Positions 14,854-63,823 of a stretch of DNA of 64,000 bases are shown piece by piece (position 1 is the first letter of the stretch; each line of letters starts with the position of its first letter). The notes beneath the pieces were generated by a model. It ran no database searches, was not told the origin of the DNA, and saw nothing but the letters and a program-made list of their open reading frames with translations. A program made the position numbers and the translations under genes. The DNA is taken from positions 39,844 through 103,843 of the forward strand of contig CAMPKC010000007.1 of the NCBI GenBank assembly GCA_946887045.1, in the 5' to 3' direction. Source of the stretch: an uncultured Sphingobacteriaceae bacterium. Its GTDB lineage: Bacteria > Bacteroidota > Bacteroidia > Sphingobacteriales > Sphingobacteriaceae.

Positions 14854-15068
14854 ATTGATTATTATGGCACCCCTCGGATTTGTTTTGAACCGATGCTGTG
14901 CAATAAAGTTTGAGGTTTTTTTAGTTCCAGTATAAACCTGCTTTTTTAGAAAGATATATGTTGTTTTTACCCGGTAAAAAACCGGAAGAAATAAAAAATA
15001 ATTGAAATTTTCTGGAACCACTCTGGCAGACGAATTGTTTTCATATCAGGTTACAAGCCTGTAAAAAC

Positions 15069-15075
15069 AAGGAGG
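15069..15075 (+). promoter_or_regulatory. Strong Shine-Dalgarno AAGGAGG for hsp20
   Basis: AAGGAGG lies 7 nt ahead of the ATG at 15083, matching the DUF2267 site in sequence and spacing. Most other genes in the window have no such element. Confidence 0.8.
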
Positions 15076-15082
15076 ATATGAT

Positions 15083-15520: not shown

Positions 15521-15535
15521 TCTGGTTTTGATGAA

Positions 15536-15586
15536 GTAATTTTTATTCAGGGCATAAGCTGTGCTTATGTCCTGAATAAAAATTAC
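15536..15586. terminator. 24-bp hairpin after hsp20
   Basis: Arms 15536-15559 and 15563-15586 pair along 24 positions with a single G-T (G-U in RNA) pair and a 3-nt TGT loop. It is 16 bp past the hsp20 stop codon and 29 bp past the stop of the convergent DUF6799-like gene, so it can terminate both. The stem is unusually long for a terminator. Confidence 0.75.
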
Positions 15587-15614
15587 AGATTTAAATCTCC
15601 AGGTTATTTATCGT

Positions 15615-16013: not shown

Positions 16014-16142
16014 AAAAAAGCTTCTTAATTACCTTGTAAAGATAGCTTTTACGCGTTTTTAAAGAGGTGATTTTTATCAGATCTGCTGCTGATTGTGGGC
16101 ATTTAACACTGTTATCCGCAGAGATTTTAAAAAAGAGCAGGC

Positions 16143-49236: not shown

Positions 49237-49259
49237 TGTTATATTCAATTAAAGTTTAA

Positions 49260-50600: not shown

Positions 50601-51628
50601 GCTGAAAGCGCTTTTGAGGTGTCTTGAACAGCATCTTTATCGCAGCAGGCCGTGCCGAGGCTTTTATTTGCTTCCCATAAATCAAGATTAGCGATGGTTT
50701 TTTCGGCTATAACCTGCAATGCTTCTTCGGTAAGAAACGCTATATGCGGGGTCAGCAGTACTCTTGAATGCTGGATCAGAGCCTTGAGCAGTTGGTCGTT
50801 AATAGGATTTTTGCTATGATTGAAAAAGAAAATATTGTGCTCAAATTCATAAACATCCATCCCGAGCTTACTGATTTTCTCATTTTGAAGACTTTCAAAA
50901 ACGTCTTTGGTGTTAAACACCGCACCGCGGCTAACGTTAATCAATACAACTCCATCCTTCATTTTGCGGATGGTTTCGTTGTTTACCATATGCCGGGTCG
51001 ATTCGTTTAGGGGTACATGAAATGTTATAATATCCGATTCTCTAAGTAAATCATCAAAAGAAACCTGGCGGGCTCCGTAGCTCAGGCAAAACCCGCTTAC
51101 ATCCTCCGTATCGCTCACCAGAATTCTGGCTCCAAAGCCGTTCAATATTTTGGCGACTACTTGGCCGGTGCGGCCCAAACCAACAATACCTATCGTTTTA
51201 TTTCTTATGGTGTTTCCGACAAGATTATTCAAACTGAAATCGTACTCCAGCATTTGTTTATGGGCAGGAACGATGTTTCTAATCAGGGAAAGCATTAAGG
51301 CAATGGCATGCTCTGCGATAGATTCGGGAGAATAAGCAGGAACGTTCGCTACTTTTAAGCCTAATTTTCCAGCCTCCTGAATGTCAATGTGATCGGTACC
51401 TGCGGAACGGGTGGAGATATATTTAACGCCCATCTCCTTTAACTTTACCAGGATAGGGGCAGAGAGGTCGTCACACGCAAAAACCAAAACAGCATCTTTT
51501 CCTTTCGCGTAAGAAATTGTGTCGAGGGTGAGCCTGTTTGATATTAAAGTAATATCATGCTTCTTATTATTAGCCTTAATAAGTAATTCTTTTTCGCAAA
51601 TCTTACTGCTGTATGCAACCGCTTTCAT
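50597..51628 (-). CDS. ldhA: D-2-hydroxyacid dehydrogenase (D-lactate dehydrogenase type)
   Basis: A 343-residue NAD-dependent enzyme of the D-lactate dehydrogenase branch. It turns pyruvate into D-lactate to regenerate NAD during fermentation. TRSAGTDHIDIQEAGKLGLKVANVPAYSPESIAEHA, the NAD motif GIVGLGRTGQVVAKILNGFGARILVSD, the Arg in LINVSRGAVFN, the Glu in GMDVYEFE and the His in LTPHIAFLTEEA are all present. It is the first gene of an operon with hemN and the 596-residue protein. A perfect 22-bp dyad (51695-51716) and a TACTTTTG octamer (51647-51654) lie upstream. Confidence 0.94.
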   Translation of the reverse strand: MKAVAYSSKICEKELLIKANNKKHDITLISNRLTLDTISYAKGKDAVLVFACDDLSAPILVKLKEMGVKYISTRSAGTDHIDIQEAGKLGLKVANVPAYSPESIAEHAIALMLSLIRNIVPAHKQMLEYDFSLNNLVGNTIRNKTIGIVGLGRTGQVVAKILNGFGARILVSDTEDVSGFCLSYGARQVSFDDLLRESDIITFHVPLNESTRHMVNNETIRKMKDGVVLINVSRGAVFNTKDVFESLQNEKISKLGMDVYEFEHNIFFFNHSKNPINDQLLKALIQHSRVLLTPHIAFLTEEALQVIAEKTIANLDLWEANKSLGTACCDKDAVQDTSKALSA

Positions 51629-51646: not shown

Positions 51647-51654
51647 CAAAAGTA
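51647..51654 (-). promoter_or_regulatory. Candidate -7 element TACTTTTG of the ldhA operon
   Basis: On the minus strand this octamer is an exact TAnnTTTG match, 18 bp ahead of the ldhA ATG. Its final G (51647) is 58.5 bp from the centre of the 22-bp dyad at 51695-51716, the class I spacing for a CRP/FNR activator. Confidence 0.65.
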
Positions 51655-51694
51655 CTGCGGTTGCAGGGGGCGGGGTATGAGGCTAATCAACGGC

Positions 51695-51716
51695 AAAAGT
51701 GATCTTGATCACTTTT
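51695..51716. promoter_or_regulatory. Perfect 22-bp FNR-like dyad upstream of ldhA-hemN
   Basis: AAAAGTGATC and GATCACTTTT are exact complements around TT. The core TGATCTTGATCA fits TGAT-N4-ATCA, the FNR half-site pair. It lies 66 bp ahead of the ldhA ATG and overlaps the stop codon of the response-regulator gene. I infer that this regulator binds here. Confidence 0.7.
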
Positions 51717-52782
51717 ACTGTTTTATTCGTTTCAATCGTTCAAGTGATAGAATTTTGATGACGCTTCCTTCTTTTTCAATTAATCGTTCTTCTTTAAAAT
51801 CTGCCAGGGTGCGACTGATCGTTTCATTTGCCGTACCTACCATTGCGGCCAAATCATCACGGGAGACTTTAATTTCGCAGGTTTCTACAGTAGCTCCGGC
51901 AAACTTTCTTGCCAGATCTATCAGCGCATCGGCCACTCGTTTTCTCACGGAATTATAAGCCAATCTTAAAAGTTGCTCTTGCTTTTCGTGAAGGTTTCCG
52001 GAAAGTAGTTCGATGAATTTCTTGGCAATTCCCAGGTCTTTAAATAGCAAAGCATTAAAGTCATTTCTGGGGATTAAATGAAGTTCAGCAGAGTCAAGGG
52101 CTTCTGCATTTTCAGGGTACGGTTTATTTAAAAGTACAGCTTCATATCCCAAAAAGTCGCCCGTGGTAAACATGCCGGTTACAATTTCGCGGCCGTCCTG
52201 ATACACCATAAACGTTCTCACTTTTCCACTTTTCACAAGGTAAACGTTCAGTGCCTGGTCGCCATCCATGTAAATGTTTTGCTTTTTCTTATAAGCACGA
52301 ATGCGGCTGTTCACCGAAAGTTCATTCAATAATTTAGCAGAGCGGGCTTCATCAAGTAAGGTTTCTAAAGATGCCGCATTACCAGCGTTTTTAATGGCTC
52401 TTTCCTTTTTCTGCAGACGACTTTCTATGGCATTCAATAATTCCATATCGTCAAAAGGTTTGGTTAAATAATCGTCAGCTCCCATTTCCATTCCTTTCCG
52501 CACATCGGTACGTTCAGCTTTCGCAGTCAGAAATATAAAAGGAATATCTGCAGTGCCAGCATTTTTACTGAGCAGATAGAGTACTCCGTAGCCATCCAGC
52601 TCCGGCATCATAATGTCGCACAAAATAATGTCGGGTGTGTGCGACTGCGCTAGTTCGACACCTTTTTTTCCGTTTTCGGCTGTGTAGACTTTAAAGTCTG
52701 CTAATTCAAGTATCTCTGCTGTGCTTTCGCGTATGTCCTGATTGTCCTCAATTAATAGTACCGTTTTCTTTTGTGTACTCAT
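51715..52782 (-). CDS. Response regulator with CRP/FNR-type DNA-binding output
   Basis: A 355-residue fusion. Residues 1-125 are a receiver with LLIEDN, phospho-acceptor Asp in IILCDIMMPELDGYG and KPFDD. Residues about 145-270 form a cyclic-nucleotide-binding beta roll without the Arg needed for cAMP. Residues 275-350 are an HTH_Crp domain whose recognition helix reads NETISRTL, the same ETISR as FNR. No four-Cys cluster is present, so it does not sense O2 by itself. It combines the roles of FixJ and FixK. It overlaps the kinase gene by 4 bp, and likely targets are the TGAT-N4-RTCA sites described separately. Confidence 0.93.
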   Translation of the reverse strand: MSTQKKTVLLIEDNQDIRESTAEILELADFKVYTAENGKKGVELAQSHTPDIILCDIMMPELDGYGVLYLLSKNAGTADIPFIFLTAKAERTDVRKGMEMGADDYLTKPFDDMELLNAIESRLQKKERAIKNAGNAASLETLLDEARSAKLLNELSVNSRIRAYKKKQNIYMDGDQALNVYLVKSGKVRTFMVYQDGREIVTGMFTTGDFLGYEAVLLNKPYPENAEALDSAELHLIPRNDFNALLFKDLGIAKKFIELLSGNLHEKQEQLLRLAYNSVRKRVADALIDLARKFAGATVETCEIKVSRDDLAAMVGTANETISRTLADFKEERLIEKEGSVIKILSLERLKRIKQ

Positions 52783-53966
52783 TCTAATTTAAAAATTAAA
52801 GAAATTGTTGTCCCTTTGTTTTGAGCACTTTGGCAAATTACTTCTCCGCCCATCATTTCAACGTATCTTTTTACAATATTTAGACCTAAGCCTGTGCCCG
52901 GAATATTTCCGGTATTATGGGCTCTGAAAAAAGGTTCAAAAAGATTTTTCTGTTCCTCCAGCGGAATTCCAATTCCGTTATCCTTTACAGTAATATAAAT
53001 CTCAGTTTCGTTTACCTCCGAGTTAAATTCAATAAAAGTGTTTTCTCCCGAATATTTTATGGCGTTTGAAACAAGGTTTATAGCCGCACTTTTCAGTAAG
53101 GCCGGATCTAGAAAAACCTGGCTTGTAGCCCCGGTATGCTGATAAACAATATGCTGGTTTTGTTTAGAAATCAGCTGCATCTCTTCAACTATGTCTTCAG
53201 AAAATTTAACAAGATCAAACTCTTGAAATTGCACTTCAGTTTTTCCCGCTTCTAACTTTTCAAGAGATAAGAAGTCGTTTAAGATGCCTGTAAGGTGACC
53301 TACAGAGTTTTTTATTTTACCAGTATGTTTTAAAATGTTATCCGGATCCGCTTTTTGCAAATACTTTTCAATTAAAGAAGCAGACAGCTGAACTGAACTT
53401 AAGGGAGTTCTGAACTCGTGAGAGGCCATTGAAACAAATCTGGTTTTAAGCTGATTAAGTTCTTTCTCTTTTTCTAAAGAGTGACTGGCTTCATCTCTCG
53501 CATGCTCCAATTCAACAACAAGATGCTCCAGATTCTGAGTCCGGTTTTTTACTTTTTCCTCCAGCTCTTCGGTATACCTCTTTAAATTTTCTTCTGCTTC
53601 CTTTTCTTTAGAAAGATCGTGAACAAAGCCGGTAAATATTTTTCTGTCTTCGTACTCAACCTCACTTACGGCCAGCCGGAAAGGGAACGTGCTGCCATCT
53701 TTTCGCAAGCCCAAAACTTCCCTGCCTATACCGATAATACGTTTTTCTCCAGTACTTTGATACCTGTGTATATATCCATCGTGTGCACTTTTATAAGGCT
53801 CGGGCATTAGTACAGAGATATTCCGCCCTTTTACTTCATCTTCCAAATATCCGAACAATGTCAAAGCAGCAGGATTCATGGTTTCGATCATCCCACGAGA
53901 ATCGATAGTTATTATGCCATCAATTGCGGATTCGATTATTGCGTGCAGCAGTTTTAACTTATCCAT
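52779..53966 (-). CDS. FixL-like haem-PAS histidine kinase (predicted oxygen sensor)
   Basis: A 395-residue soluble kinase. Its N-terminal PAS domain (about 1-120) has the FixL haem-pocket signature PEPYKSAHDGYIHRY and IIGIGREVLGLRKDGSTFP. Aligned by these motifs to Bradyrhizobium FixL, His62 matches the haem ligand His200, Arg68 matches Arg206, Ile77 and Ile80 match 215 and 218, Arg82 matches Arg220, and Leu98 and Val100 match Leu236 and Ile238. A coiled coil, HisKA (SMASHEFRTPLSS) and HATPase (GTGLGLNIVKRYVEMMGG) follow. It has no membrane segment. The next gene is its response regulator, 4-bp overlap. Haem binding is inferred, not measured. Confidence 0.9.
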   Translation of the reverse strand: MDKLKLLHAIIESAIDGIITIDSRGMIETMNPAALTLFGYLEDEVKGRNISVLMPEPYKSAHDGYIHRYQSTGEKRIIGIGREVLGLRKDGSTFPFRLAVSEVEYEDRKIFTGFVHDLSKEKEAEENLKRYTEELEEKVKNRTQNLEHLVVELEHARDEASHSLEKEKELNQLKTRFVSMASHEFRTPLSSVQLSASLIEKYLQKADPDNILKHTGKIKNSVGHLTGILNDFLSLEKLEAGKTEVQFQEFDLVKFSEDIVEEMQLISKQNQHIVYQHTGATSQVFLDPALLKSAAINLVSNAIKYSGENTFIEFNSEVNETEIYITVKDNGIGIPLEEQKNLFEPFFRAHNTGNIPGTGLGLNIVKRYVEMMGGEVICQSAQNKGTTISLIFKLE

Positions 53967-54009
53967 TAACTTTTTACAAAAGTAAGTTTCATTTACAATG
54001 CGATAAAAG

Positions 54010-54017
54010 CAAATATA
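54010..54017 (-). promoter_or_regulatory. Candidate -7 element TATATTTG of the kinase-regulator operon
   Basis: On the minus strand TATATTTG is an exact match, 44 bp ahead of the kinase ATG. A second match, TACTTTTG at 53977-53984, is closer to the ATG. The FNR-like site at 54048-54059 lies upstream of both, with its centre 43.5 and 76.5 bp from their final G, which is not the spacing seen at the other targets. Confidence 0.4.
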
Positions 54018-54047
54018 AATTAAGATTGGTTTTAAATTGTCTTAAAC

Positions 54048-54059
54048 TGATAAAGATCA
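54048..54059. promoter_or_regulatory. FNR-like site between the kinase operon and the 143-residue gene
   Basis: TGATAAAGATCA fits TGAT-N4-ATCA perfectly. Towards the plus-strand gene at 54134 its centre is 58.5 bp from the G of GAATTTTG (54105-54112), which matches TAnnTTTG at five of six positions. Towards the kinase it may support autoregulation. Confidence 0.65.
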
Positions 54060-54133
54060 TAGAATAATTTGACAGGTATCATTACGGGCACAGTAATTAA
54101 GGATGAATTTTGATGATATAAATACTACGTGTC

Positions 54134-54565
54134 ATGACAACTGTAATCGAAGAAAATCAGCTGAGTGCTGAATTACAAGAGCTTTATCTTATTAGCAAAC
54201 ACTGGGTTTCTGATTTAGAGTTCTTTGCCCGGGATCTAAATTTTTTACAAAAGCTGGTAGAGCGAGGTTATTCTCAATTGAAAAAGCACGAAGTAAATGA
54301 AAACCTGCTCGAAATGAAGCTGAATGTCTTAAACCTTCAAACCCAAAATGTGGCTTTAAGACAAAATGTTACACAATATCTATCTCAGCTCGAGCGTCTT
54401 ATAGATAATACAAATGACAGTTATGAACTTGGTCTGATTGAAACTCACAGCGCTCTTGAACGTGAAATTGGCAATCTGTTCCGGACTTTTAAATCAGTTA
54501 AACAGCGTGTTTTCAAATTAACTTCCGAAAGAATAAAAGCCAGCAATTCTAAAAATCAAAAATAG
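54134..54565 (+). CDS. Uncharacterised coiled-coil protein of the predicted low-oxygen regulon
   Basis: A 143-residue protein, nearly all helical with heptad patterns (LEMKLNVLNLQTQNVALRQNVTQYLSQLERLIDNT). There is no signal peptide or membrane segment and I do not recognise a family. It may be a cytoplasmic stress or ribosome-associated factor, but this is a guess. The gene follows a TGAT-N4-ATCA site at class I spacing and precedes a universal stress protein gene after 108 bp. Confidence 0.7.
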   Translation: MTTVIEENQLSAELQELYLISKHWVSDLEFFARDLNFLQKLVERGYSQLKKHEVNENLLEMKLNVLNLQTQNVALRQNVTQYLSQLERLIDNTNDSYELGLIETHSALEREIGNLFRTFKSVKQRVFKLTSERIKASNSKNQK

Positions 54566-54609
54566 CCTGTGCAGATATTTGCGACGATTCATTTCAAATT
54601 TTGTTAATG

Positions 54610-54621
54610 TGATTTAAGTCA
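54610..54621. promoter_or_regulatory. FNR-like site upstream of the universal stress protein gene
   Basis: TGATTTAAGTCA fits TGAT-N4-GTCA. It is 53 bp ahead of the ATG at 54674. The octamer at the class II distance (CATTTTTA, 54645-54652) matches TAnnTTTG at only four of six positions, so this is the weakest of the six sites. Confidence 0.5.
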
Positions 54622-54673
54622 TTGTAGTTTAATGTATTATCAGTCATTTTTACTTGTATAAAAATACTGTGTT

Positions 54674-55594
54674 ATGAAAACTATCCTTTTATTAACCGAC
54701 TTTTCGACACGAGCTCAATTCGCGGCTCAGTACGCCATGCAAATGGCAATGAAGTTAGAAGCGAATATTTTGCTTTGCAATGCTATGGAAATTATCGAGA
54801 GTGCTCCCATGGCGGAGCAAATTGCCTGGCCAGTTGCAAATCATCTTGCTCTGAAACAAGAGGGGCTGGCTGATTTAAAAGAAATCGCCAGGCAGATGAA
54901 CGAAGATATTTCTGACGCGAAGTTTAAACCTACCATATCGTGCCTGTGCGACTTTGGAAAATTATCTGTTGTTGTTGCAAATATTATAAAAGACAAGGGC
55001 GTTGATCTTGTGGTGATGGGTGCTCATAAATCAAATGGTTTATCCCGCTTTCTTTTTGGCAGCCATACGCATGATGTGTTGGATAATATTCAATGTCCGG
55101 TTTTATTGGTGCCAGAAAACTTGAAATTTAAAGAAATTCGCCTGATCGCCTATGCCACAGATCTCACTTTTAGCGATTCTAAAGTTATAAAGTATTTGAG
55201 CGAAGTTGCGATTGCCTGTAAATCCGAAATCTTAGTTAGCCATATTTCAACTTATGGTTTACCTGATATTGACTCGGAAAAGGCCATTAAGCATTCTATT
55301 AGTGAGTTTTCGCCTCAGGGTCATCCGAGGATTTTATATGCAACAATTAAGGGTGGCAATATTCCCAGAAGATTAATTGAAATAACCGGCTCAGGTAAAG
55401 CAGATTTATTAGCTCTTGTTCATAAGCAATATGGCTTTTTTGAGGGATTATTCCATTCAAGTGTTAGCAAGCAAATGGCCAGTAGCTCTAAAATACCCTT
55501 GCTTGTGCTCCCGAACCATTTTAGTGTTGACGTGGCAGATCTCTCAAATGAACAGTTAGATCATTATTGCTATGAACCAGATGATTCACGATGA
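54674..55594 (+). CDS. Universal stress protein with two Usp domains
   Basis: A 306-residue protein with two UspA-like domains in tandem. The first (about 1-150) shows MKTILLLTDFSTRAQFAAQYAM and the ATP-site motif VVMGAHKSNGLSRFLFGSHTHDVL. The second (about 155-285) begins IRLIAYATDLTFSDSKVI and has a looser motif (LALVHKQYGFFEGLFHSSVSKQM). Usp proteins accumulate under starvation and low oxygen; in several bacteria they are part of FNR-type regulons, which suits the site upstream. A long-stem terminator follows. Confidence 0.93.
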   Translation: MKTILLLTDFSTRAQFAAQYAMQMAMKLEANILLCNAMEIIESAPMAEQIAWPVANHLALKQEGLADLKEIARQMNEDISDAKFKPTISCLCDFGKLSVVVANIIKDKGVDLVVMGAHKSNGLSRFLFGSHTHDVLDNIQCPVLLVPENLKFKEIRLIAYATDLTFSDSKVIKYLSEVAIACKSEILVSHISTYGLPDIDSEKAIKHSISEFSPQGHPRILYATIKGGNIPRRLIEITGSGKADLLALVHKQYGFFEGLFHSSVSKQMASSSKIPLLVLPNHFSVDVADLSNEQLDHYCYEPDDSR

Positions 55595-55632
55595 GAGGAG
55601 TATACATTATAAATTTAATACCAACCTAGTTA

Positions 55633-55678
55633 AAGAAGGAGAAAGGGTATCGCAACTCGTAATCTCCTTCTTTTTTTA
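55633..55678 (+). terminator. Terminator after the universal stress protein gene
   Basis: AAGAAGGAGA pairs with TCTCCTTCTT, loop of 20 nt, then a run of T. It begins 39 bp past the stop codon. The G-rich AGAAGGAGA arm is not a ribosome-binding site. Confidence 0.85.
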
Positions 55679-55733
55679 TTAAAAGCTATCTCTTTCGTTT
55701 TTGGCTTTCAACTACTTTCCGGAAATTGTTAAT

Positions 55734-55753
55734 AAAGTGTCTAAGATCACTTT
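55734..55753. promoter_or_regulatory. FNR-like dyad upstream of the yceI-barrel pair
   Basis: AAAGTG at 55734-55739 and CACTTT at 55748-55753 match the outer arms of the ldhA dyad. The right half ATCA is intact but the left reads TGTC. It shares 15 of 20 bases with the site at 51695. The centre is 58.5 bp from the G of TACATTTG (55795-55802), exactly as at ldhA. Confidence 0.65.
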
Positions 55754-55794
55754 TTTTTACACCTCACATCATTCACCAGCCTTATTTCCCGGGA

Positions 55795-55802
55795 TACATT
55801 TG
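55795..55802 (+). promoter_or_regulatory. Candidate -7 element TACATTTG of the yceI gene
   Basis: An exact TAnnTTTG match 31 bp ahead of the ATG at 55833. With the dyad centre 58.5 bp upstream of its G, it mirrors the ldhA promoter. Confidence 0.65.
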
Positions 55803-55832
55803 TGCTATAGAAATACACTAATTAAATTAAGT

Positions 55833-56441
55833 ATGAAAGTCTTAAACGTTAATGCCAGCAAATTCAAAAATCGTGTGGGTCAGCTTTTAACGCTGGTTCT
55901 TGCAATAAGCTTCACTGCCATCACTGCATCAGTACAGGCACAGACTCCTTTCAAGGCAGTTTCTGGTTCACTTATTAAAGTGATCGGAACTTCAAATATT
56001 CACGATTGGACAATGAGTGCAAGCACTTTCAGTTGCGATGGAAGTTTTACTGTAAAAGGAGATCAGTTAGTAGATATTACTTCTCTCAATTTCTCACTTC
56101 CGGTTGCTAACTTAAAGGGTAAAGAAGATTTACTCACTACAAGAGCCCACAAAGCACTAAAAGCAGAACAACATAACAAAATTACTTTTAAGCTAACAGA
56201 TGCCACTATTGTACAACAGCAAAAGGTAATTAAGGCGACCGGAAATTTGACTATAGCCGGAGTAACCAAGCCTGTTACGCTTCAAACAAATTATACTGTT
56301 GGAGATGATGAACTTATTTGTAAAGGTTCAAAAGCTATTAAAATGAGCGATTTCAACATTAAAGCTCCAACATTCATGATGGGGGCATTAAAAGTAGCTA
56401 ATGACGTTACCATCGACATCGTATTAAAATTAAAAAAATAA
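55833..56441 (+). CDS. YceI family protein, first copy in the yceI-barrel-yceI cluster
   Basis: A 202-residue exported protein. The ATG at 55833 is chosen because the frame's upstream part (from 55701) overlaps the promoter. The signal peptide ends near residue 32 (ASVQAQ). The YceI barrel shows FKAVSGSLIKVIGTSNIHDWTMSA, DLLTTRAHKALKAEQHNKITFKL and LTIAGVTKPVTLQTNY. YceI proteins bind isoprenoid lipids in the periplasm. It lies 40 bp before the beta-barrel gene and may be co-transcribed with it, under the FNR-like dyad. Confidence 0.92.
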   Translation: MKVLNVNASKFKNRVGQLLTLVLAISFTAITASVQAQTPFKAVSGSLIKVIGTSNIHDWTMSASTFSCDGSFTVKGDQLVDITSLNFSLPVANLKGKEDLLTTRAHKALKAEQHNKITFKLTDATIVQQQKVIKATGNLTIAGVTKPVTLQTNYTVGDDELICKGSKAIKMSDFNIKAPTFMMGALKVANDVTIDIVLKLKK

Positions 56442-56481
56442 GACCTTATCACTAAATATTCACTCGTAAATAATAAACAGC

Positions 56482-57798
56482 ATGAAAACTCAATTATCTA
56501 ACATTTTAAAAGTTGCAGCCGTTGCCTTAATACTGGCAAGTCCGGTTGCATTACAAGCACAAACTGAGGTCGCTAACCTTAGACCTTACGATAAAAGCGG
56601 TATTAACGTATTCGAAGCTCCAAAAGACTCAAATGCCGTATTTGATAAACTTAAAGTACAATTTGGCGCCGGATTTACTCAGTCATTCCAGGGTTTAAAG
56701 CATGAAAACGTTTCCGGAGGATTGTATAGAATGACCCCTGGATTTAATACAGCCAACGCTAACTTATATATGGATGTACAATTAGCAGAGGGAATTCGGT
56801 TGAATTTAACCAGCTATTTATCATCACGTCACCACAACGAAACATGGGTAAAAGGCGGATATATCCAATTTGATAAACTTCCGTTCAACGGTCAGATTTG
56901 GGATGATATCATGAAATTCACTACCATTAAAGTCGGACACATGGAAATCAATTACGGCGATCAACACTTCCGTAGATCAGATGGTGGTCACACGCTTTAC
57001 AACCCATTTGCTGAAAACTATATTCTTGACGCATTTACAACAGAGATAGGTGGCGAAGTGTTAGTAAGACATAGCGGGTTGTTCGGTCTTTTAGGTGTAA
57101 CAAACGGTATGGTGAAAGGTAATATCGATAGCCTTATTGCAACACCTCAGGATGATAATATCCACAAATCTCCGGCAATTATTTTAAAAGGAGGGTTCGA
57201 TAAACAACTTGCAAAACTTGTAAGAGTACGTGCTGCTGCATCTTACTATTACAACAAAAGTTCAGGTGGCAACACACTATATTCTGGCGATCGTACTGGA
57301 TCTAACTATTTTGGCGCACTTGAGAAAGTTGGAAGTACCGGTTTCACAACTGGCCGTGTAAATCCAGGGTTTAGCAAAAAGGTAGAAGCATTGCAACTTA
57401 ACGGTTTTGTAAAAGCTCAGGGCTTAGAGTTATTTGGTACTTATGAAGTTGCAAATGGCAGAACTAAAAATGAAGTTGATAGCAGAAAAGCAACTCAGTA
57501 TGCAATTGATGCTATCTACAGAATAGGTGCCGCTGAAAACTTCTTTGTAGGTGTACGGTACAATACCTTAGACTACAGACCTGCAAATGTTGCAGCTGCA
57601 GGAACAGTACCTGCTATTACTTATACAGAAGATGTTAAAGTAGATCGTTTAGCCTTCGGCGCAGGTTGGTTCTTAACAGATAATATTCTATTAAAAGGTG
57701 AATATGTAAAACAAGAGCACAAAAACTACCCTGCAGCAAACTATCTTAACGGTGGCGAGTTTAAAGGTTACGTTATACAGGCTGTAGTCGGCTTTTAA
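56482..57798 (+). CDS. Outer membrane beta-barrel protein, porin-like
   Basis: A 438-residue exported protein with a signal peptide (residues 1-26, SPVALQAQ). The rest is strongly amphipathic beta strand with aromatic girdles (WVKGGYIQFDKL, YYYNKSSGGN, FFVGVRYNTLDYRP) and ends in a C-terminal strand FKGYVIQAVVGF with a terminal Phe, as outer-membrane barrels do. It has no TonB plug, so it is more like a passive porin than a SusC-type transporter. Cargo is unknown. It sits between two yceI genes. Coupled YceI and barrel proteins may carry or protect a lipid or quinone-like compound. Confidence 0.85.
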   Translation: MKTQLSNILKVAAVALILASPVALQAQTEVANLRPYDKSGINVFEAPKDSNAVFDKLKVQFGAGFTQSFQGLKHENVSGGLYRMTPGFNTANANLYMDVQLAEGIRLNLTSYLSSRHHNETWVKGGYIQFDKLPFNGQIWDDIMKFTTIKVGHMEINYGDQHFRRSDGGHTLYNPFAENYILDAFTTEIGGEVLVRHSGLFGLLGVTNGMVKGNIDSLIATPQDDNIHKSPAIILKGGFDKQLAKLVRVRAAASYYYNKSSGGNTLYSGDRTGSNYFGALEKVGSTGFTTGRVNPGFSKKVEALQLNGFVKAQGLELFGTYEVANGRTKNEVDSRKATQYAIDAIYRIGAAENFFVGVRYNTLDYRPANVAAAGTVPAITYTEDVKVDRLAFGAGWFLTDNILLKGEYVKQEHKNYPAANYLNGGEFKGYVIQAVVGF

Positions 57799-57815
57799 TC
57801 AAATATTTCAAATTG

Positions 57816-57850
57816 AAAAGCAGGTTGATCTTGGTCAGCCTGCTTTTTTT
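57816..57850 (+). terminator. Terminator after the porin-like gene
   Basis: AAAAGCAGG at 57816-57824 pairs with CCTGCTTTT at 57839-57847, stem extended by TTGA/TCAG, followed by a T run to 57850. The loop sequence includes TGATCTTGGTCA, which also matches the FNR-like box, but its place relative to any promoter does not fit. Confidence 0.8.
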
Positions 57851-57865
57851 GTATAACTTAAGATA

Positions 57866-58477
57866 ATGGATATGCATCCACGGAAAACGCTTTTGCTTCT
57901 TATGCTTATTTTGTTTTCGGCTTTTAATAGTCAGATAAGTAAGCCTCAGATAACCAAGTGGGTTATTATGAAGGGAGGCTCATTGAAAGTGGATGGCAGT
58001 ACCAATATTAATAAGTTTAATTGTGTAATAGCAAACTATGCAAAGCCCGATACCTTATCTCTTTATAAGTACGCAAAGAAGGAGGTTTTGCCAATAAGCG
58101 GTTCTTTAAAACTGGATGTTCAGAAATTTGATTGCCATCATCCGATTATGACGAGCGATTTAAGAAAAACATTAAAGGCAAAGGAATTTCCCACGCTGAC
58201 GATCAGGTTCATAAATTTGAACAGATATCCTGATCCTGACATTAAACATGACCTGGTAAAGGGAATCGTTACCATAGAACTGGCTGGTGTAACGCGACGT
58301 TTAGAAGTAGATTACAAATTTATTTCTGGCGGAGAGAATGTAATTAACCTGATCGGAACCCGGCAAGTGAGTTTTTCCGACTTTAATATTATTCCTCCCA
58401 GGAAAATTGGCGGAATGATTCAAACTAATGACGAATTAACTGTAGTATTCAATTTGAGGATGAAAGTGATAGATTGA
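57866..58477 (+). CDS. YceI-like protein, second copy in the cluster
   Basis: A 203-residue exported protein, more diverged than the other two YceI proteins. The signal segment covers about residues 5-22. The domain starts WVIMKGGSLKVDGSTNINKFNCVI and holds TSDLRKTLKAKEFPTLTIRFINL and VTIELAGVTRRLEVDYKFI. The ending SFSDFNIIPPRKIGGMIQTNDELTVVFNLRM parallels the end of the first copy (SDFNIKAPTFMMGALKVANDVTIDIVLKL). A terminator separates it from the barrel gene, so it may be read through or use its own promoter. Confidence 0.88.
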   Translation: MDMHPRKTLLLLMLILFSAFNSQISKPQITKWVIMKGGSLKVDGSTNINKFNCVIANYAKPDTLSLYKYAKKEVLPISGSLKLDVQKFDCHHPIMTSDLRKTLKAKEFPTLTIRFINLNRYPDPDIKHDLVKGIVTIELAGVTRRLEVDYKFISGGENVINLIGTRQVSFSDFNIIPPRKIGGMIQTNDELTVVFNLRMKVID

Positions 58478-58616
58478 GCATGATAAGCAAACATTAGCTT
58501 TTTAATTAAACCTCTGCTCTTTATTTTGATAATTACATCTTCTAAACTCTCTGGTCAAATGCCAGTTCAAATTTCTTTGTAAGCCAAAATATCTTATTGG
58601 AGATGACATTAATGCA

Positions 58617-59024
58617 TCATGGGTTTATCTTCGCAAATAGAACTCCTGCAACCAGGGCCTGTAAAAAGCCATAAACAAACCAGCTTAAAACTATCGCGAT
58701 AGTTATATCTAAAGAACTAAAGGTAATCCACATTACGGGCAATAAGGCGACAATTGCGTACACAAGTCCGAATTCAATACCTCGCACGAAAAAAGGGCCT
58801 GAGAAAAGAGGCTTAAATCTTTCCCAAAACCACGACAAGGCAAAGCTTATAATAAATGCGTGCAGATAAAACAACACATCTCTGCTGCCATCAGAATTGA
58901 ATAGAGGATTGTTGTAAACTACAAAAAGCTCTGGAACAAACCGGATTGCAAGAAATAGCCCGCCGTAGCTGATAATAAACAAACTTATGCCTACAATTAA
59001 GCCGGAATAAAGAATTTTTTTCAT
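58617..59024 (-). CDS. Small four-helix membrane protein
   Basis: A 135-residue integral membrane protein with four hydrophobic stretches (about 6-28, 50-66, 84-103 and 107-131). It contains a conserved-looking FALSWFWERFKPLFSGPFFVRGIEFGLVYAI segment but I do not recognise a family with a known role. It is convergent with the yceI gene and divergent from the aldolase gene. No FNR-like site is placed at its promoter. Confidence 0.75.
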   Translation of the reverse strand: MKKILYSGLIVGISLFIISYGGLFLAIRFVPELFVVYNNPLFNSDGSRDVLFYLHAFIISFALSWFWERFKPLFSGPFFVRGIEFGLVYAIVALLPVMWITFSSLDITIAIVLSWFVYGFLQALVAGVLFAKINP

Positions 59025-59304
59025 GTTTAGTAATTAATCAGGTACGTCTATCCTGACCTCTTTTTTTTATTCTAATATAGTCTTAATTCGCTTTACTGCA
59101 AGCTTGCAAAAAGCGTGAAGGTGAATAGATTTTGTTCTTACCTTTTGTGTCAATAAAACGGTGAATTTATTTGAATACAGTCGCCACTGCGATGATACGA
59201 ATTACCAAAATAAATGATACTCATCACGCCTTCGATTAGATACTGCATTCTCCCATCAACGTTAACTTCAGCTTGTTTTTTCAGATATAAATCGTTTTAT
59301 AATG

Positions 59305-59316
59305 TGATATTGGTCA
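59305..59316. promoter_or_regulatory. FNR-like site upstream of the class II aldolase gene
   Basis: TGATATTGGTCA fits TGAT-N4-GTCA. Its centre is 36.5 bp from the G of ATCCTTTG (59340-59347), the class II spacing, although that octamer has TA reversed to AT. The remaining part of this 360-bp gap (59025-59384) holds no other feature I can see. Confidence 0.6.
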
Positions 59317-59384
59317 TTTGGAAGTCTCAGAATAATTGCATCCTTTGTTTGATTAACACACAAGAGGTTTTTATCGAATATAAC

Positions 59385-60686
59385 ATGAATGAGATTCTAA
59401 ATACACGTTTAATGCACCCAAGAGATCAAATCGCTCTGGTAATGAGCAGGATCTACCGACGAGGTTTAACAACAACATCCGGGGGTAATATTTCAATAAT
59501 GGACGATAATGGTGATATATGGATTTCACCTTCGGCAGTAGATAAAGGAATGCTTAAGCCATCAGATATTGTGTGCGTAAAAAGAGAAGGCGGTGTTGAG
59601 GGTTGTCATAAACCGTCCTCGGAATTTCCTTTTCATAAAGCTATTTATGAGATACGTCCCGATATAAAGGCCATTATTCATGCTCATCCGCCAGCCTTAG
59701 TTTCTTTTAGTATCGTTCGGGCAACACCAGATACTAATATAATTACCCAGGCCAGACGGATTTGCGGTCCTGTTGGATACGCAGAGTATGAGTTGCCGGG
59801 AAGCCAGGCGCTGGGTGCAAAAATTGCAATGGAGTTTACAAAGGGATTTAAGGCCGTGATTATGGAAAATCATGGAACCGTCGTCGGCGGTTCTGATTTG
59901 ACTGATACCTTCGAACGTTTTGAAACACTTGAGTTTTGTGCCCGGACAATTCTGTATGGCAATGCTGTCGGATCACCTCAATATCTTAGTGATCAGCAAA
60001 TTGATGCGTTTGAATCGCAGGTGCCAGAACCATTGCCAGAAATGGAAGAAGTAGCATATTCGTCTGACGAGCGCGAGAAGAGACTCGAGATCTGTAATAT
60101 TGTTCATCGCGCATGTACGCAGGGATTAATGATCAGTTCCTATGGTACAGTGTCAACCCGTTGGAAGGGAAATGATTTCTTGATTACCCCTACTGATGTA
60201 CCCCGCTGGGATTTAAAAATCGAAGACATAGTACAGATTAAAGATGGTAAACGTGAACCGGGTAAGATTCCGAGCCGGACTACATATCTGCATCAGGAGA
60301 TTTATAAAAAACATCCTGAAATTAACTCGATCATACTCACACAATCACCTTATCTAATGGCATTTGCCGTTACCGGAGCAGCCTTTAATGTTCGCACAAT
60401 CCCAGAAAGCTGGATATTTTTACAGGATGTAAGCTCTCTTGAATTTGGATCGCATTTTAAAGGTGAAACCATTATTCCGGATTTAGTGGCCAAACACAAT
60501 CCGGCGGTAATAGTTAAAAATGCCTGTGTAATGATAACCGGCGACCAGTTGTTACAAACCTTCGATTATCTGGAAGTGGCAGAATTTAGTGCGAAATCTT
60601 TAGTGCTTTGTGCCTCCATCGGGAATCTGGTTCCTATTAGCAACGAGCAGGTTGAGGAGTTACGTCACGCCTTTATAAAAGAGTAG
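59385..60686 (+). CDS. Tandem class II aldolase/adducin protein, second domain degenerate
   Basis: A 433-residue protein with two class II aldolase folds. In the first (about 10-215) the catalytic Glu (SSEFPFH, residue 80) and zinc ligands (HAH at 99-101 and ENHG near 166) are present, so it could cleave or epimerise a phosphorylated sugar such as fuculose or ribulose phosphate. In the second (about 225-430) the same places read RTTYLH, LTQSP and KNAC, so Glu and all His are lost. The ATG at 59385 is used instead of an upstream in-frame ATG (59214), because an FNR-like site and promoter lie between them. Confidence 0.88.
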   Translation: MNEILNTRLMHPRDQIALVMSRIYRRGLTTTSGGNISIMDDNGDIWISPSAVDKGMLKPSDIVCVKREGGVEGCHKPSSEFPFHKAIYEIRPDIKAIIHAHPPALVSFSIVRATPDTNIITQARRICGPVGYAEYELPGSQALGAKIAMEFTKGFKAVIMENHGTVVGGSDLTDTFERFETLEFCARTILYGNAVGSPQYLSDQQIDAFESQVPEPLPEMEEVAYSSDEREKRLEICNIVHRACTQGLMISSYGTVSTRWKGNDFLITPTDVPRWDLKIEDIVQIKDGKREPGKIPSRTTYLHQEIYKKHPEINSIILTQSPYLMAFAVTGAAFNVRTIPESWIFLQDVSSLEFGSHFKGETIIPDLVAKHNPAVIVKNACVMITGDQLLQTFDYLEVAEFSAKSLVLCASIGNLVPISNEQVEELRHAFIKE

Positions 60687-60707
60687 AAATTATTAAATAT
60701 ATACAGG

Positions 60708-60737
60708 AGGGCCGGTTGTCTTATCACACCCGGCCTT
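60708..60737. terminator. Hairpin between the aldolase and threonine/serine exporter genes
   Basis: AGGGCCGG pairs with CCGGCCTT (8 bp, one G-U pair, 14-nt loop), followed by TCTTATTT. The GGAGGG next to it is part of the stem, not a ribosome-binding site. Confidence 0.65.
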
Positions 60738-60748
60738 CTTATTTAAAA

Positions 60749-61243
60749 TCAAAGTCGTCTCTTTCTAAATCTGATATCCTTTGCCGAATCTTTTCTGGTA
60801 ATAAGCATTGGAATCCCTACACCCCCAGCAAGACTCATCAGAATAAGCATAACTTTGAGTCCATTGTTGACCGTTTCGGAAAGTATCTGAGTATAGCTTG
60901 CCGGATCAATGGTACCTGCGAGGCTTATAAGGCCAAGCATCATGCGGTAAGCAAAAATTCCCGGCACCATGGGTATAACTGCGGGAATTGCAAAGATCGG
61001 AGGAGGTGCGTGTTTCTTATGAGCAAATGGTATGCTTAAAAAGCCGATTAAAGTAGCGCCAGCCAGTGTTGACACAATTACATTCACTTCGAACAGTAGT
61101 AAAATGGTTTTACTGACTCCGCCTAAAGCGCCTAAAATAAAAACCGGGATAATTGCTCTTAAGGGTACATTAAACAAAATGGCGAAACCCACTGCGGCCA
61201 GCCCGAACCACATTCCTTTCTCTATTAATACTAGCCATTCCAT
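60749..61243 (-). CDS. Threonine/serine exporter family, ThrE_2 subunit (YjjB-like)
   Basis: A 164-residue membrane protein with about five helices. The LAAVGFAILFNVPLRAIIPVFILGALG start and the AIPAVIPMVPGIFAYRMMLGLISL motif are typical of the YjjB/ThrE_2 partner. In two-gene systems the small and large subunits act together; E. coli YjjPB exports succinate, and fused ThrE of Corynebacterium exports threonine and serine. It starts 1 nt after the YjjP-like gene ends. The real cargo is unknown. Confidence 0.92.
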   Translation of the reverse strand: MEWLVLIEKGMWFGLAAVGFAILFNVPLRAIIPVFILGALGGVSKTILLLFEVNVIVSTLAGATLIGFLSIPFAHKKHAPPPIFAIPAVIPMVPGIFAYRMMLGLISLAGTIDPASYTQILSETVNNGLKVMLILMSLAGGVGIPMLITRKDSAKDIRFRKRRL

Positions 61244-61244
61244 T

Positions 61245-62015
61245 TTAGAACTGATATATAATCATTGAAGTTAACAAACCTAAAGCTATCGAAAACGAAA
61301 TGATAAAGCCGTTGAGCCCGCGAATAAGGCCGTTTTGCAGGTTTCCATCAATTATGTCGGAACATGAATTTATCAGAGGGACGCCCGGGATCAGAAAAAG
61401 AACGGATGTTGCGAATGCGTGCTCATGAGTTAAGCCTGTTCCAAATTTTAAGGGGATACCAGCGATTAATGATGAAGTAAAAGCGGCGAAAAATACGCAC
61501 ATGTACGGATTGAATCGCATTTTTAGGGTTTCCTGCCTTATAAATAATCCCGTAAAGGAGCCGATAAAAACCATTAGCATATCTAAAGTTTCACCTCCTG
61601 CCAATCGGCAAAAGGCCGCACCGGCTACTCCAACAACTAAAAGGATTAACAGTCTGGGATAATGGGGCAATTCGGACAAACGTTTTAGTTCCTGATTGAT
61701 TTGATCCACCGTCCATTTTTGTTCGACAATCAGCCAGCTCATCCGGCTTATTCCAGACATTGTAGAAAAATTGATCCCATGGGCAGAGGTACGTTTAAGG
61801 CTGTTGTAGAAGTGATCGGTTTCATCATCGTAAATCTTCAGCATGAGCGTGCGTTGCGAGATTAACATTTCTGCACTATACCCGAAAGAATCTGCTATTC
61901 TATTTATTGTGTTTCGAATTCGTCCGGTGCTTGCGCCCGAGACCATTAGTAAGGAGCCAATTTCGAGTAGAGTAGAACCGAGCTCTTTTATTTCTTTGCT
62001 TTTTTCAGTAATCAT
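61245..62015 (-). CDS. Threonine/serine exporter family, ThrE subunit (YjjP-like)
   Basis: A 256-residue protein. The soluble N-terminal part carries ASTGRIRNTINRIADSFGYSAEMLISQRTLML, a family hallmark. The C-terminal half has five transmembrane segments, with FLIPGVPLINSCSDIIDGNLQNGLIRGLNGF near the end. It forms a pair with the ThrE_2-like gene 1 nt downstream. Succinate export by E. coli YjjPB under anaerobic conditions makes a link with the low-oxygen genes around it thinkable, but no FNR-like site was found at its promoter. Confidence 0.92.
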   Translation of the reverse strand: MITEKSKEIKELGSTLLEIGSLLMVSGASTGRIRNTINRIADSFGYSAEMLISQRTLMLKIYDDETDHFYNSLKRTSAHGINFSTMSGISRMSWLIVEQKWTVDQINQELKRLSELPHYPRLLILLVVGVAGAAFCRLAGGETLDMLMVFIGSFTGLFIRQETLKMRFNPYMCVFFAAFTSSLIAGIPLKFGTGLTHEHAFATSVLFLIPGVPLINSCSDIIDGNLQNGLIRGLNGFIISFSIALGLLTSMIIYQF

Positions 62016-62123
62016 CTGAATAATTCAGGTACAAATCTAAGTATCGATGAATCATTTTCTTGCTGACCTGCATCATTATTTTTCAAGTAAAAAAAGTAAA
62101 CTTTTGTGGGTAAAAGATAGAAG

Positions 62124-63362
62124 ATGGAACTGAAGAAAGTTGAACTGATGGCTCCCGCCGGGTCGTTCGAGTCGTTGCGTGCTGCAATCCAGGCAGGCGC
62201 AGATTCTATATATTTTGGTGTAGAGCAGCTCAATATGCGAGTAAGATCAAGCAGTAGTTTGATTATAAATGATATTCCGGAAATCGTTAAAATTTGCAGG
62301 GAAAGTGATGTTAAGTGTTATTTAACACTGAATACTGTGATATACAACCACGATATGCATATAATGAAGGCAATTGTGGATACCGCAAAAAAATCCGGAG
62401 TGAATGCTGTCATCGCCTCCGATCCTTCTGTGTTAAGATATGCGCGAATGGTTGATATGCCTGTTCATATCTCTACCCAGGCCAATGTTTCGAATATTCA
62501 AAGTGTCGATTTCTTTTCGGATTATGCTGATGTTATCGTGCTGGCCAGGGAGCTTAGCCTCAAACAAGTGGAATTCATCACCCGCGAAATAAAGAGAAAA
62601 TCCATTACAGGCGTTTCGGGTCAATTGATGCGCATTGAGATATTCGCTCACGGAGCTTTGTGCATGGCAATTTCTGGCAAATGCTATTTGAGTCTTCATT
62701 CAGATTTTGCATCAGCAAACAGAGGAGCTTGTATTCAAAATTGCCGGCATAGTTATTTGGTGGCTGATAAAGAAACAGGCGTGGAGTACGAGATCGATAA
62801 TGAATATATCATGTCGGCCAAAGATCTGTGCACCATAGACTTTTTAGACCAGTTAATAGATTCAGGTATATCCGTTATTAAAATAGAAGGAAGAGGCAGG
62901 AGTGCTGATTATGTTTACACAACAACGAAGTGTTACAGAGAAGCTGTGAACGCATATTACAATGGGAATTATAATTCTGAATTAATAAAAGCCTGGAAAG
63001 CTAGATTGGCAACAGTGTATAATCGGGGTTTTTGGGATGGTTATTACCTCGGTCGGAAAATGGGCGAATGGAGCAACGAGTATGGTTCTAAAGCTACAAA
63101 ACGAAAGATTTACATCGGTAAAGGATTGAACTATTTTAAAAATGCCGCTGCCGCAGAATTTCTGGTAGAAGCCCAGACCTTATCTAAAGGTAACGAAATT
63201 ATAATAACCGGCCCCATAACCGGACTGATTCAAACGATCGTTGATGAAATAAGGGTCGGAAACATATCGAAGGACATGGTCAAAAAAGGTGAGATTTTTT
63301 CAATCCCTTTAGACACCAAGATTCAGGCGTCAGACAGGCTGTATAAATTAGTTGATGTTTAA
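62124..63362 (+). CDS. Peptidase U32 family protein (TrhP/RlhA-like)
   Basis: A 412-residue protein of the so-called peptidase U32 family, most of whose studied members are iron-sulfur tRNA, rRNA or quinone hydroxylation enzymes rather than proteases. The signature RIEIFAHGALCMAISGKCYLS fits the family pattern, and four cysteines (GALC, GKC, RGAC, QNC) form the expected cluster-binding set. The N-terminus ELMAPAGSFESLRAAIQAGADSIYFG is a TIM-barrel start. Its stop overlaps the start of the ferredoxin gene by 1 bp, so electrons are probably supplied by that ferredoxin. It acts without O2 in known cases. Confidence 0.92.
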   Translation: MELKKVELMAPAGSFESLRAAIQAGADSIYFGVEQLNMRVRSSSSLIINDIPEIVKICRESDVKCYLTLNTVIYNHDMHIMKAIVDTAKKSGVNAVIASDPSVLRYARMVDMPVHISTQANVSNIQSVDFFSDYADVIVLARELSLKQVEFITREIKRKSITGVSGQLMRIEIFAHGALCMAISGKCYLSLHSDFASANRGACIQNCRHSYLVADKETGVEYEIDNEYIMSAKDLCTIDFLDQLIDSGISVIKIEGRGRSADYVYTTTKCYREAVNAYYNGNYNSELIKAWKARLATVYNRGFWDGYYLGRKMGEWSNEYGSKATKRKIYIGKGLNYFKNAAAAEFLVEAQTLSKGNEIIITGPITGLIQTIVDEIRVGNISKDMVKKGEIFSIPLDTKIQASDRLYKLVDV

Positions 63363-63592
63363 TGGCCCGCATTATATATTATCGATCTAAATGCATTGGT
63401 TGCAATGCCTGTGTTGAAGCCGCACCTTTTAGATGGCGCGTTTCGCACAAAGATGGAAGATGCACCCTAATAAACGGGATGGAAAAGAGGGGTGTTTATA
63501 GTGTTTTAGTTGGCGATGATGAAGTTCATAGTAATAAATTAGCTGCCAGTAATTGTCCGGTGAAATGCATTCAAGTATTAGAAAATCGCTAA
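63362..63592 (+). CDS. Single-cluster [4Fe-4S] ferredoxin
   Basis: A 76-residue ferredoxin. The first three ligands are in KCIGCNACVEAAP (Cys 11, 14 and 17 by the usual pattern) and the fourth is in SNCPVKC near the C-terminus, so one [4Fe-4S] cluster is expected. The residue after the third Cys group, often a further Cys in two-cluster ferredoxins, is Ala here. It is translationally coupled (TAATG, 1-bp overlap) to the U32 gene, so it likely feeds that enzyme. Confidence 0.93.
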   Translation: MARIIYYRSKCIGCNACVEAAPFRWRVSHKDGRCTLINGMEKRGVYSVLVGDDEVHSNKLAASNCPVKCIQVLENR

Positions 63593-63726
63593 TACCTTAG
63601 TTCGGCTTCCTTCAGAGATTCTTTTGCATTTTAACTATCTGAATCGATTATCGTGTTTATTGTGATTTTGTCAATCCTTCTCTTAATTATAGCAGATTTT
63701 TGTCAATTTGCTAATTTTTATCCCTT

Positions 63727-63738
63727 TGATTAAGGTCA
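63727..63738. promoter_or_regulatory. FNR-like site upstream of the DUF4914 gene
   Basis: TGATTAAGGTCA fits TGAT-N4-GTCA. Its centre is 36.5 bp from the G of TAAACTTG (63762-63769), which matches TAnnTTTG at five of six positions. The spacing equals that at the aldolase promoter. Confidence 0.6.
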
Positions 63739-63823
63739 TTTCGTGTGCCTTTCAAATTACCTAAACTTGAAATCTAAAAGGCTCAGGAACTATAACCAGC
63801 ATCTGGTAACAAAAAATCATAAC

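Follow-up and report, generated by a model that had tools for sequence, protein, structure and literature searches.

The window, a stretch of 64,000 bp from an uncultured Sphingobacteriaceae bacterium (GenBank contig CAMPKC010000007.1, positions 39,844 to 103,843; coordinates below are those of the window), encodes a response-regulator receiver fused to a Crp/Fnr-type protein, next to a histidine kinase with a FixL-type PAS domain. Promoters around these two genes carry FNR-type boxes, TGAY-N4-RTCA, at fixed distances from the Bacteroidota -7 octamer, TAnnTTTG. An initial annotation, made from the sequence alone, had placed the box centres either 58.5 or 36.5 bp from the final G of the octamer and had assigned the two distances to two promoter classes. 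This observation is confirmed and strengthened here. However, boxes at 58.5 and 36.5 bp occur together, and the 22 bp difference therefore reflects how far apart the two boxes of a single promoter lie; the promoter-class reading is replaced by a tandem-box promoter. Judging from the comparison of loci and genomes, the fusion and the kinase probably form an oxygen switch of two proteins whose regulon is mostly local.

Paired boxes upstream of the -7 octamer

The sequences compared were the best 80 of 580 confirmed regulator loci together with the window, amounting to 1.46 Mb, of which 0.146 Mb was intergenic. Genes were called as longest open reading frames without a ribosome-site model, and the label intergenic is therefore only approximate. 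The intergenic density of the boxes exceeded their coding density 15- to 51-fold: TGATN4ATCA had 103 intergenic and 62 coding matches (15-fold intergenic density), and the enrichment was 51-fold for TGACN4GTCA and 24-fold for the mixed form. The corresponding values for twelve controls (eight other palindromes and the four spacings N2, N3, N5 and N6) were 0.5- to 3.4-fold. A partner at 22 bp was also found for 20 of 115 boxes classed as coding, and some of these are probably true promoters inside overcalled reading frames.

The distances are fixed rather than random. Exact TAnnTTTG octamers 3' of an intergenic site and before a gene peaked at 58.5 bp (58 cases) and at 36.5 bp (19 cases), with at most 6 in any other bin, and the FNR-type sites with a fixed promoter geometry proposed initially are thus supported. 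The octamer has the consensus TANNTTTG, which is the -7 consensus of the Bacteroidota primary sigma factor, TANNTTTGY, as given in passages of PMC12632263. In an alignment of 59 promoters (from 44 sequences) whose box at 58.5 bp is strict, a second TGA-N6-TCA appeared at 36.5 bp, with conservation of T 83 %, G 69 % and A 86 % in the first half and T 88 %, C 83 % and A 88 % in the second. The outer T of TTGAT is not conserved in this logo (T 11 % at that position). In the surroundings of 271 intergenic sites, an offset of 22 yielded 155 counts of a second box (at most 1 mismatch of 6) and an offset of 23 yielded 18, with double counting where both boxes are strict; the background at offsets 30 to 110, excluding 33 and 44, was 4.6 +/- 2.4 counts (maximum 12).

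With up to 2 mismatches of 12 allowed for a pair, 72 of 314 intergenic TAnnTTTG octamers bear both boxes, in 53 of the 81 sequences. Eight shifted control arrangements gave 0 or 1, and shuffled upstream DNA a mean of 0.05 and at most 1 (60 rounds). Removal of the ldhA promoters leaves 52 of the 72 pairs, and when promoters are compared with one another only 3 pairings reach 80 % identity. The upstream box is the better one, perfect in 62 of 72 promoters as opposed to 35 of 72 for the downstream box, in which C replaces A or G before TCA in 28 of 72. A third box at 80.5 bp was considered and rejected, as it was perfect in 1 of 72 and had two mismatches in 2 of 72.

These counts bear directly on the initial proposal that 58.5 and 36.5 bp represent class I and class II promoters, each with a single box. 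Both distances are true peaks, E. coli CRP has peaks at -41.5 and -61.5 (passages of PMC5957442), and a few one-box promoters do exist (7 + 7). However, a perfect box at 58.5 bp has a partner at 36.5 bp (up to 2 mismatches) in 62 of 69 promoters, the logo of 59 promoters displays the second box, and upstream-only matches in the genomes with the fusion (3 of 10, see below) are near the bin background of 0 to 4. The proposal fails on this evidence, and alternative promoter classes are very improbable. In the other direction, a perfect box at 36.5 bp has a partner at 58.5 bp in 35 of 42 promoters.

In the window, the five distances reported initially are exact, namely 58.5 bp at ldhA, a 143 aa gene and yceI, and 36.5 bp at an aldolase gene and a gene initially named DUF4914. 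The octamers stood up in part: the match is full at ldhA and yceI only, with 1 mismatch at the 143 aa and DUF4914 genes and 2 at the aldolase gene. The sixth site (54610-54621, TGATTTAAGTCA), before a universal stress protein (Usp) gene, had been given no distance and has an octamer at neither.

Window promoters were scored with a tandem-promoter matrix built from 71 promoters of the relatives, excluding the window; first-order shuffles of the window (40 rounds) reached maxima of 8.0 on average and 19.7 at most. The ldhA promoter (minus strand) has the best score of the window, 43.4. Its upstream box (51700-51711, TGATCTTGATCA, centre 51705.5) is 58.5 bp from the final G, at 51647, of the octamer TACTTTTG (51647-51654), and its downstream box (51678-51689; minus-strand sequence TGATTAGCCTCA) follows 22 bp further on, at 36.5 bp. 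The 143 aa gene (score 33.0) has boxes at 54048-54059 (TGATAAAGATCA, centre 54053.5, 58.5 bp) and 54070-54081 (TGACAGGTATCA, 36.5 bp) before the plus-strand octamer GAATTTTG (54105-54112, final G 54112). At yceI (score 23.6), the upstream box (55738-55749, TGTCTAAGATCA, 1 mismatch, centre 55743.5) is 58.5 bp from the final G, at 55802, of the plus-strand octamer TACATTTG (55795-55802), and the downstream partner (55760-55771, CACCTCACATCA) retains the TCA half alone.

The aldolase pair (59283-59316) scores 14.4, with 0.05 expected per shuffled window, and combines a degenerate box at 59283 (AGATATAAATCG) with a perfect one at 59305 (TGATATTGGTCA, centre 59310.5) that is 36.5 bp from the final G of ATCCTTTG at 59347. 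The single box of the DUF4914 gene (63727-63738, centre 63732.5) is 36.5 bp from the final G, at 63769, of TAAACTTG and has no partner. Neither it nor the Usp site is among the 16 best matrix matches in the window, and direct tandem control of the window's Usp gene was rejected, as a promoter is present at neither distance.

The partner boxes at 51678, 54070, 59283 and 59193 had been overlooked initially, and two promoters, with final G at 59162 and 16037 on the minus strand, lie beyond the original list. The first (score 21.7) consists of a pair at 59193-59226 (boxes at 59193 and 59215, TGATGAGTATCA and TAATTCGTATCA) with a weak octamer, TAAATTCA, and precedes a 135 aa membrane-protein-like gene (58617-59024, minus strand) for which 71-73 % identical genes are found in three relatives' loci (L043, L047 and L056). 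The second (score 20.2), outside the range covered initially, has a pair at 16068-16101 (TGCCCACAATCA and TGATAAAAATCA) and the octamer TATCTTTA before a 132 aa gene (15615-16013, minus strand). It adjoins a second stress-type gene cluster (14411-16101), with an Hsp20 gene at 15083-15520 and a 142 aa gene at 14411-14839. A U32-peptidase-like gene in the window scored 9.4 (0.3 expected). A tandem promoter of the kinase gene itself was rejected: the paired boxes on the minus strand are correctly placed but the octamer is absent, and the score is 4.6 (2.2 expected).

Of the 13 exact sites in the window, 10 fall within its final 12.4 kb (Poisson P 5e-9 relative to the rest, for a region picked post hoc). 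With one mismatch allowed, the whole window is weakly enriched (162 sites versus 125 +/- 15; 2 of 100 shuffles were as high). By our reading, two of these ten exact sites are not promoter sites, one being in coding DNA (58129) and the other in a terminator-like hairpin between two genes (57826-57837, a perfect TGATCTTGGTCA, probably no regulator site). The site at 62064 (region 62032-62106) could serve either of two genes: the minus-strand gene 61245-62015 has an exact TAGATTTG at 37.5 bp from it, and the plus-strand gene 62124-63362 has AACTTTTG at 36.5 bp.

Genes behind the promoters

Genes could be assigned for all but 3 of the 86 promoters, tandem or single, and were grouped by BLAST clustering; one representative of each named family was checked by domain search, Usp and hemN via the window's own genes. 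The ldhA family is the largest, with 22 promoters including that of the window, followed by fused ccoNO (8), a 600 aa family, Usp and the kinase (5 each), and Hsp20 and a 127 aa family (4 each). The hemN, CcoS, zinc alcohol dehydrogenase, ScdA-type and PNPOx-like clusters have 2 each, and single cases include a CcoI-like ATPase and an acetyl-CoA hydrolase/transferase. Genes for cbb3 oxidase, hemN and ldhA are classically associated with low oxygen, and the set fits a FixK/FNR-type low-oxygen regulon.

In the window, ldhA encodes a D-2-hydroxyacid dehydrogenase-like protein (50597-51628, minus strand; Pfam 2-Hacid_dh_C 1.4e-49), and the family is behind this type of promoter in 21 of the 80 relatives' loci, 20 of the promoters being tandem when the window is included. 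The initial assignment of ldhA, hemN and Usp as low-oxygen type targets holds for the type of gene and for ldhA, which has a tandem promoter. However, the hemN-like radical SAM gene (49260-50600, minus strand; Radical_SAM 7.9e-23), which is directly 3' of ldhA and overlaps its end by 4 bases, is not a separate target, and the Usp gene (54674-55594, plus strand; Usp 2e-28) has a promoter at neither distance. Among the relatives, tandem promoters precede Usp genes in 5 loci and Hsp20 genes in 4. The 143 aa gene (54134-54565, plus strand) had no Pfam or NCBIfam match.

The window has a full-length ldhA gene. The ldhA gene next to the regulator encodes only 107-160 aa in 14 of 22 loci (for example L003 11909-12334, L004 11148-11576 and L026 11133-11597), corresponding in eight aligned sequences to the substrate-binding part of the dehydrogenase with the NAD-binding insert missing. 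These short proteins usually have a C-terminal Cys motif resembling KCVGKACxCxxxC, and hemN is directly behind the gene in those checked.

The third gene in the row (47446-49248, minus strand; 600 aa) had no NCBIfam match. Its family is directly behind promoters at 58.5/36.5 bp in 5 relatives' loci, 3 of them tandem, and is conserved, with many invariant Cys; a relative had no Pfam match. The structure model is poor (mean predicted local distance difference test score, pLDDT, 60.8), with Foldseek hints at PfaD/FabK-type reductases at template modelling (TM) scores of 0.2-0.3, and a profile search of solved structures gave only matches with E >= 0.12.

A probable reader of the paired boxes

The regulator gene (51715-52782, minus strand) encodes 355 aa comprising a receiver, a cNMP-binding fold and a Crp-type helix-turn-helix (Pfam Response_reg 4e-29, cNMP_binding 1.7e-17 and HTH_Crp_2 2.9e-17). 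All three domains are present in 119 of the best 120 relatives listed, and D13, D56, T86, K108, E320, S323 and R324 are invariant in 27 aligned relatives. The E-T-I-S-R recognition helix recognized initially was confirmed. There are two Cys in the protein and no N-terminal Cys cluster, and the best NCBIfam model for the Crp part is that of Caulobacter FixK (95 bits, below the cut-off of 300). Three loci labelled Alphaproteobacteria, Deltaproteobacteria and Azovibrio (L029, L051 and L067) have Bacteroidota-type regulators (50-51 % identity) and are probably misbinned metagenome contigs.

The kinase gene (52779-53966, minus strand; 395 aa) overlaps the regulator gene by 4 bases. The FixL heme domain, 1d06, is the best solved-structure match (7e-33), and the NCBIfam FixL model was matched at 1.9e-50 but far under its whole-protein cut-off (172 of 850 bits). 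The PAS domain contains H62, R68 and R82, of which we take H62 and R82 to be equivalent to BjFixL H200 and R220, with the roles of proximal His and distal Arg. A PAS-kinase relative is present in 71 of 80 loci, and in 63 its gene lies immediately upstream, in the same orientation. In 34 relatives the PAS domain is FixL-like (at least 55 % identity), and H62 and R82 are kept in all 34 and R68 in 20. Tandem promoters are present in 26 of 35 sequences with this kind of PAS domain and in 20 of 37 with a more distant kind. The FixL residue numbers were not found in passages of PMC4263535.

The fusion, called at E <= 1e-55 with 6 candidates scored per genome, is present in 43 of 296 Bacteroidota genomes. 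Strict tandem matches, in which a pair with both boxes strict is counted on both strands, had a mean of 5.16 in the 43 carriers (any in 32, at least 3 in 26) and 0.30 in the 253 non-carriers (any in 45, at least 3 in 6), and a backward control pattern gave 7 matches versus 298 for the forward pattern in all 296 genomes. Near the fusion there are 63 strict tandems in 1.03 Mb (49 loci of about 21 kb), or 61 per Mb, versus 222 in about 199 Mb (a sum of rounded sizes), or 1.1 per Mb, over the carrier genomes; this 55-fold difference is between loci of close relatives and a survey that includes distant carriers. The concentration of sites around the regulator described initially is thus upheld.

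Clustering at the two distances was also seen genome-wide. A scan for boxes 20-50 bases from an octamer, with distances measured as above, gave 69 matches in six carriers chosen among those with tandem matches, 12 at 36.5 bp and 10 at 58.5 bp, with at most 4 in every other bin. Of 67 matches in eight hand-picked non-carriers, of which G014, G078 and G196 have FNR-like matches, 4 were at 36.5 bp and 3 at 58.5 bp (largest bin 5), and four fusion-free genomes with FNR-like proteins had 17 at 36.5 bp and 5 at 58.5 bp of 62, of which 13 and 3 were in one genome, G273. Because the partner box is present in the carriers at 7 of 10 matches at 58.5 bp but at 3 of 12 at 36.5 bp (6 of 13 in G273), 36.5 bp looks like a general class II-like position that is used alone elsewhere in the genomes, and 58.5 bp like that of its upstream partner.

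Several observations weigh against the fusion as an oxygen-responsive reader of the pair. Tandem promoters are lacking in 16 of 50 long sequences and strict tandems in 11 of 43 carriers, 36.5 bp matches across whole carrier genomes have a partner in just 3 of 12 cases, 3 of 10 at 58.5 bp stand alone, and the kinship of genomes confounds the correlation of tandems with regulators. FNR-like proteins (E <= 1e-33; weaker matches may exist) were called in 75 of the 296 genomes, 30 of them carriers, in which the match is sometimes the fusion itself. At least 3 tandems were found in 5 of the 45 non-carriers with such a match (G019, G113, G152, G273 and G275) versus 1 of the 208 others (G080), and in G275 and G152 receiver-less FNR-like genes, whose proteins have an N-terminal Cys cluster, adjoin tandem sites. 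Finally, among the 71 PAS relatives, 37 share only 25-37 % identity; the first His is conserved in 36 of these 37 and the second Arg in 11 (absent from 26).

The FNR-like proteins raise the alternative that another Crp/Fnr protein, for example an FNR-like iron-sulphur (Fe-S) protein, reads the tandem boxes alone or together with the fusion, which might merely be a neighbour. Tandems beside Cys-cluster proteins in fusion-free genomes, the 6 of 13 tandem matches at 36.5 bp in G273 and the 5 of 45 versus 1 of 208 non-carriers all speak for it. However, 36 of the 45 FNR-like non-carriers have no strict tandem; ten carriers with tandems (G004, G009, G066, G082, G124, G160, G164, G180, G188 and G251) have no FNR-like match at the threshold used, though weaker ones are possible; and tandems cluster at the fusion and track its helix type. 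Among carriers whose helix is ET[LAF]IR, 0 of 11 have at least 3 tandems and 2 have any, versus 26 and 30 of the 32 others, a grouping made post hoc. We regard another reader as rather unlikely. The helix residue before the Arg (S, T, I or N) was rejected as the determinant; I occurs both with many and with zero tandems. G273, with 13 promoters at 36.5 bp and 11 strict tandem matches next to FNR-like proteins but no fusion, is well suited to the question of single versus paired boxes.

The divergence of about half of the PAS relatives, with the counts of His and Arg given above, is in keeping with a second alternative, with correct wiring but a PAS domain whose signal is another bound ligand, nitric oxide or redox state. 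Two targets are of the ScdA/hemerythrin type, one verified by Pfam. Set against this are the FixL-like PAS domain in the window and 34 relatives, with the His and second Arg always kept, and the classical low-oxygen genes among the targets. A signal other than oxygen is, on balance, unlikely.

A probable two-protein switch and its known counterparts

The most likely function is a low-oxygen switch in which a FixL-FixJ-FixK cascade would be collapsed into two proteins, because the receiver-Crp fusion adjoins a FixL-type PAS kinase and tandems precede ldhA, cbb3 oxidase, Usp, Hsp20 and kinase genes. Comparison across the relatives supports the putative regulon and its low-oxygen role. The kinase would hold heme in its PAS domain; when oxygen falls, the heme PAS domain would lose oxygen and the kinase would phosphorylate the receiver of the neighbouring fusion. 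The active fusion would then bind as two adjacent dimers to the boxes 22 bp, or about two helical turns, apart. The downstream dimer may contact RNA polymerase from its class II-like position, with 36.5 bp to the G of the -7 box, and the upstream, usually better box at 58.5 bp may anchor it cooperatively. With two dimers at this spacing, the alpha domain of the polymerase would probably have little space to fit in between.

A more speculative extension, which we consider possible but doubtful, is that the receiver lets phosphorylation gate a Crp/Fnr activator, which would act as a dimer of dimers. Contact between the phosphorylated receivers of neighbouring dimers would make binding and activation dependent on the two-turn spacing, and in many Bacteroidota the promoter grammar would then be paired boxes for low-oxygen genes and a single class II box for other Crp/Fnr targets. 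Near the fusion, 35 of 42 perfect boxes at 36.5 bp have a partner, versus 6 of 13 in the fusion-free G273 (P 0.012), a hint from local loci compared with one whole genome. The idea that the receiver alone accounts for the tandem arrangement is weakened by the receiver-less proteins beside tandems, and survives only within this dimer-of-dimers reading.

To our knowledge, activator action at the unusual -7/-33 promoters of Bacteroidota has been little studied. The rule of two boxes 22 bp apart, the nearer 36.5 bp from TAnnTTTG, would allow candidate low-oxygen regulons to be called from sequence and offers a simple test of cooperation between two Crp-type dimers. Searches of a library of open-access papers, without subscription papers and preprints, gave no title or abstract opening that pointed to a paper on this subject.

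Among known systems, E. coli CRP shares with the fusion the Crp fold and a class II-like distance for the downstream box. However, CRP boxes at -41.5 or -61.5 are alternatives (passages of PMC5957442), whereas here both positions occur in one promoter, 22 bp apart, and one box per promoter is not the rule (72 pairs versus 7 + 7 singles). FNR has an N-terminal Cys cluster for [4Fe-4S], which the fusion does not. The FNR-type Fe-S activators of G273, G275, G152, G019 and G113 share the core box and the 36.5 bp position, in part in tandem, but have no receiver and an N-terminal Cys cluster, and single boxes are commoner. In a study of three Fnr proteins of Herbaspirillum, co-activated promoters had no additional Fnr sites beside the motif, according to passages of PMC5934665.

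Another close counterpart is the FixL-FixJ-FixK cascade of Alphaproteobacteria, in which a heme-PAS kinase acts on a response regulator and this in turn on a Crp/Fnr protein (passages of PMC4999443). Shared features are a FixL-type PAS kinase, in which heme is predicted here, a response regulator, a Crp/Fnr protein lacking an Fe-S cluster, TGA-N6-TCA boxes, and cbb3 oxidase and hemN-type targets. The PAS domain is closest to the FixL heme domain and has the His and Arg that presumably play the same roles. Unlike FixJ, with its LuxR/FixJ-type helix-turn-helix output, the fusion has a cNMP fold and HTH_Crp as output. Like FixK, it lacks Fe-S cysteines, but FixK has no receiver and is controlled through transcription by FixJ. 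With the FixJ-type receiver and the FixK-like part joined in one protein, one step of the cascade is missing. The setting also differs, in the phylum Bacteroidota with its -7 box, in the paired boxes 22 bp apart and in the outer T of TTGAT, which is not kept. The system would be a FixLJ-FixK-like cascade reduced to two proteins, in a different phylum.

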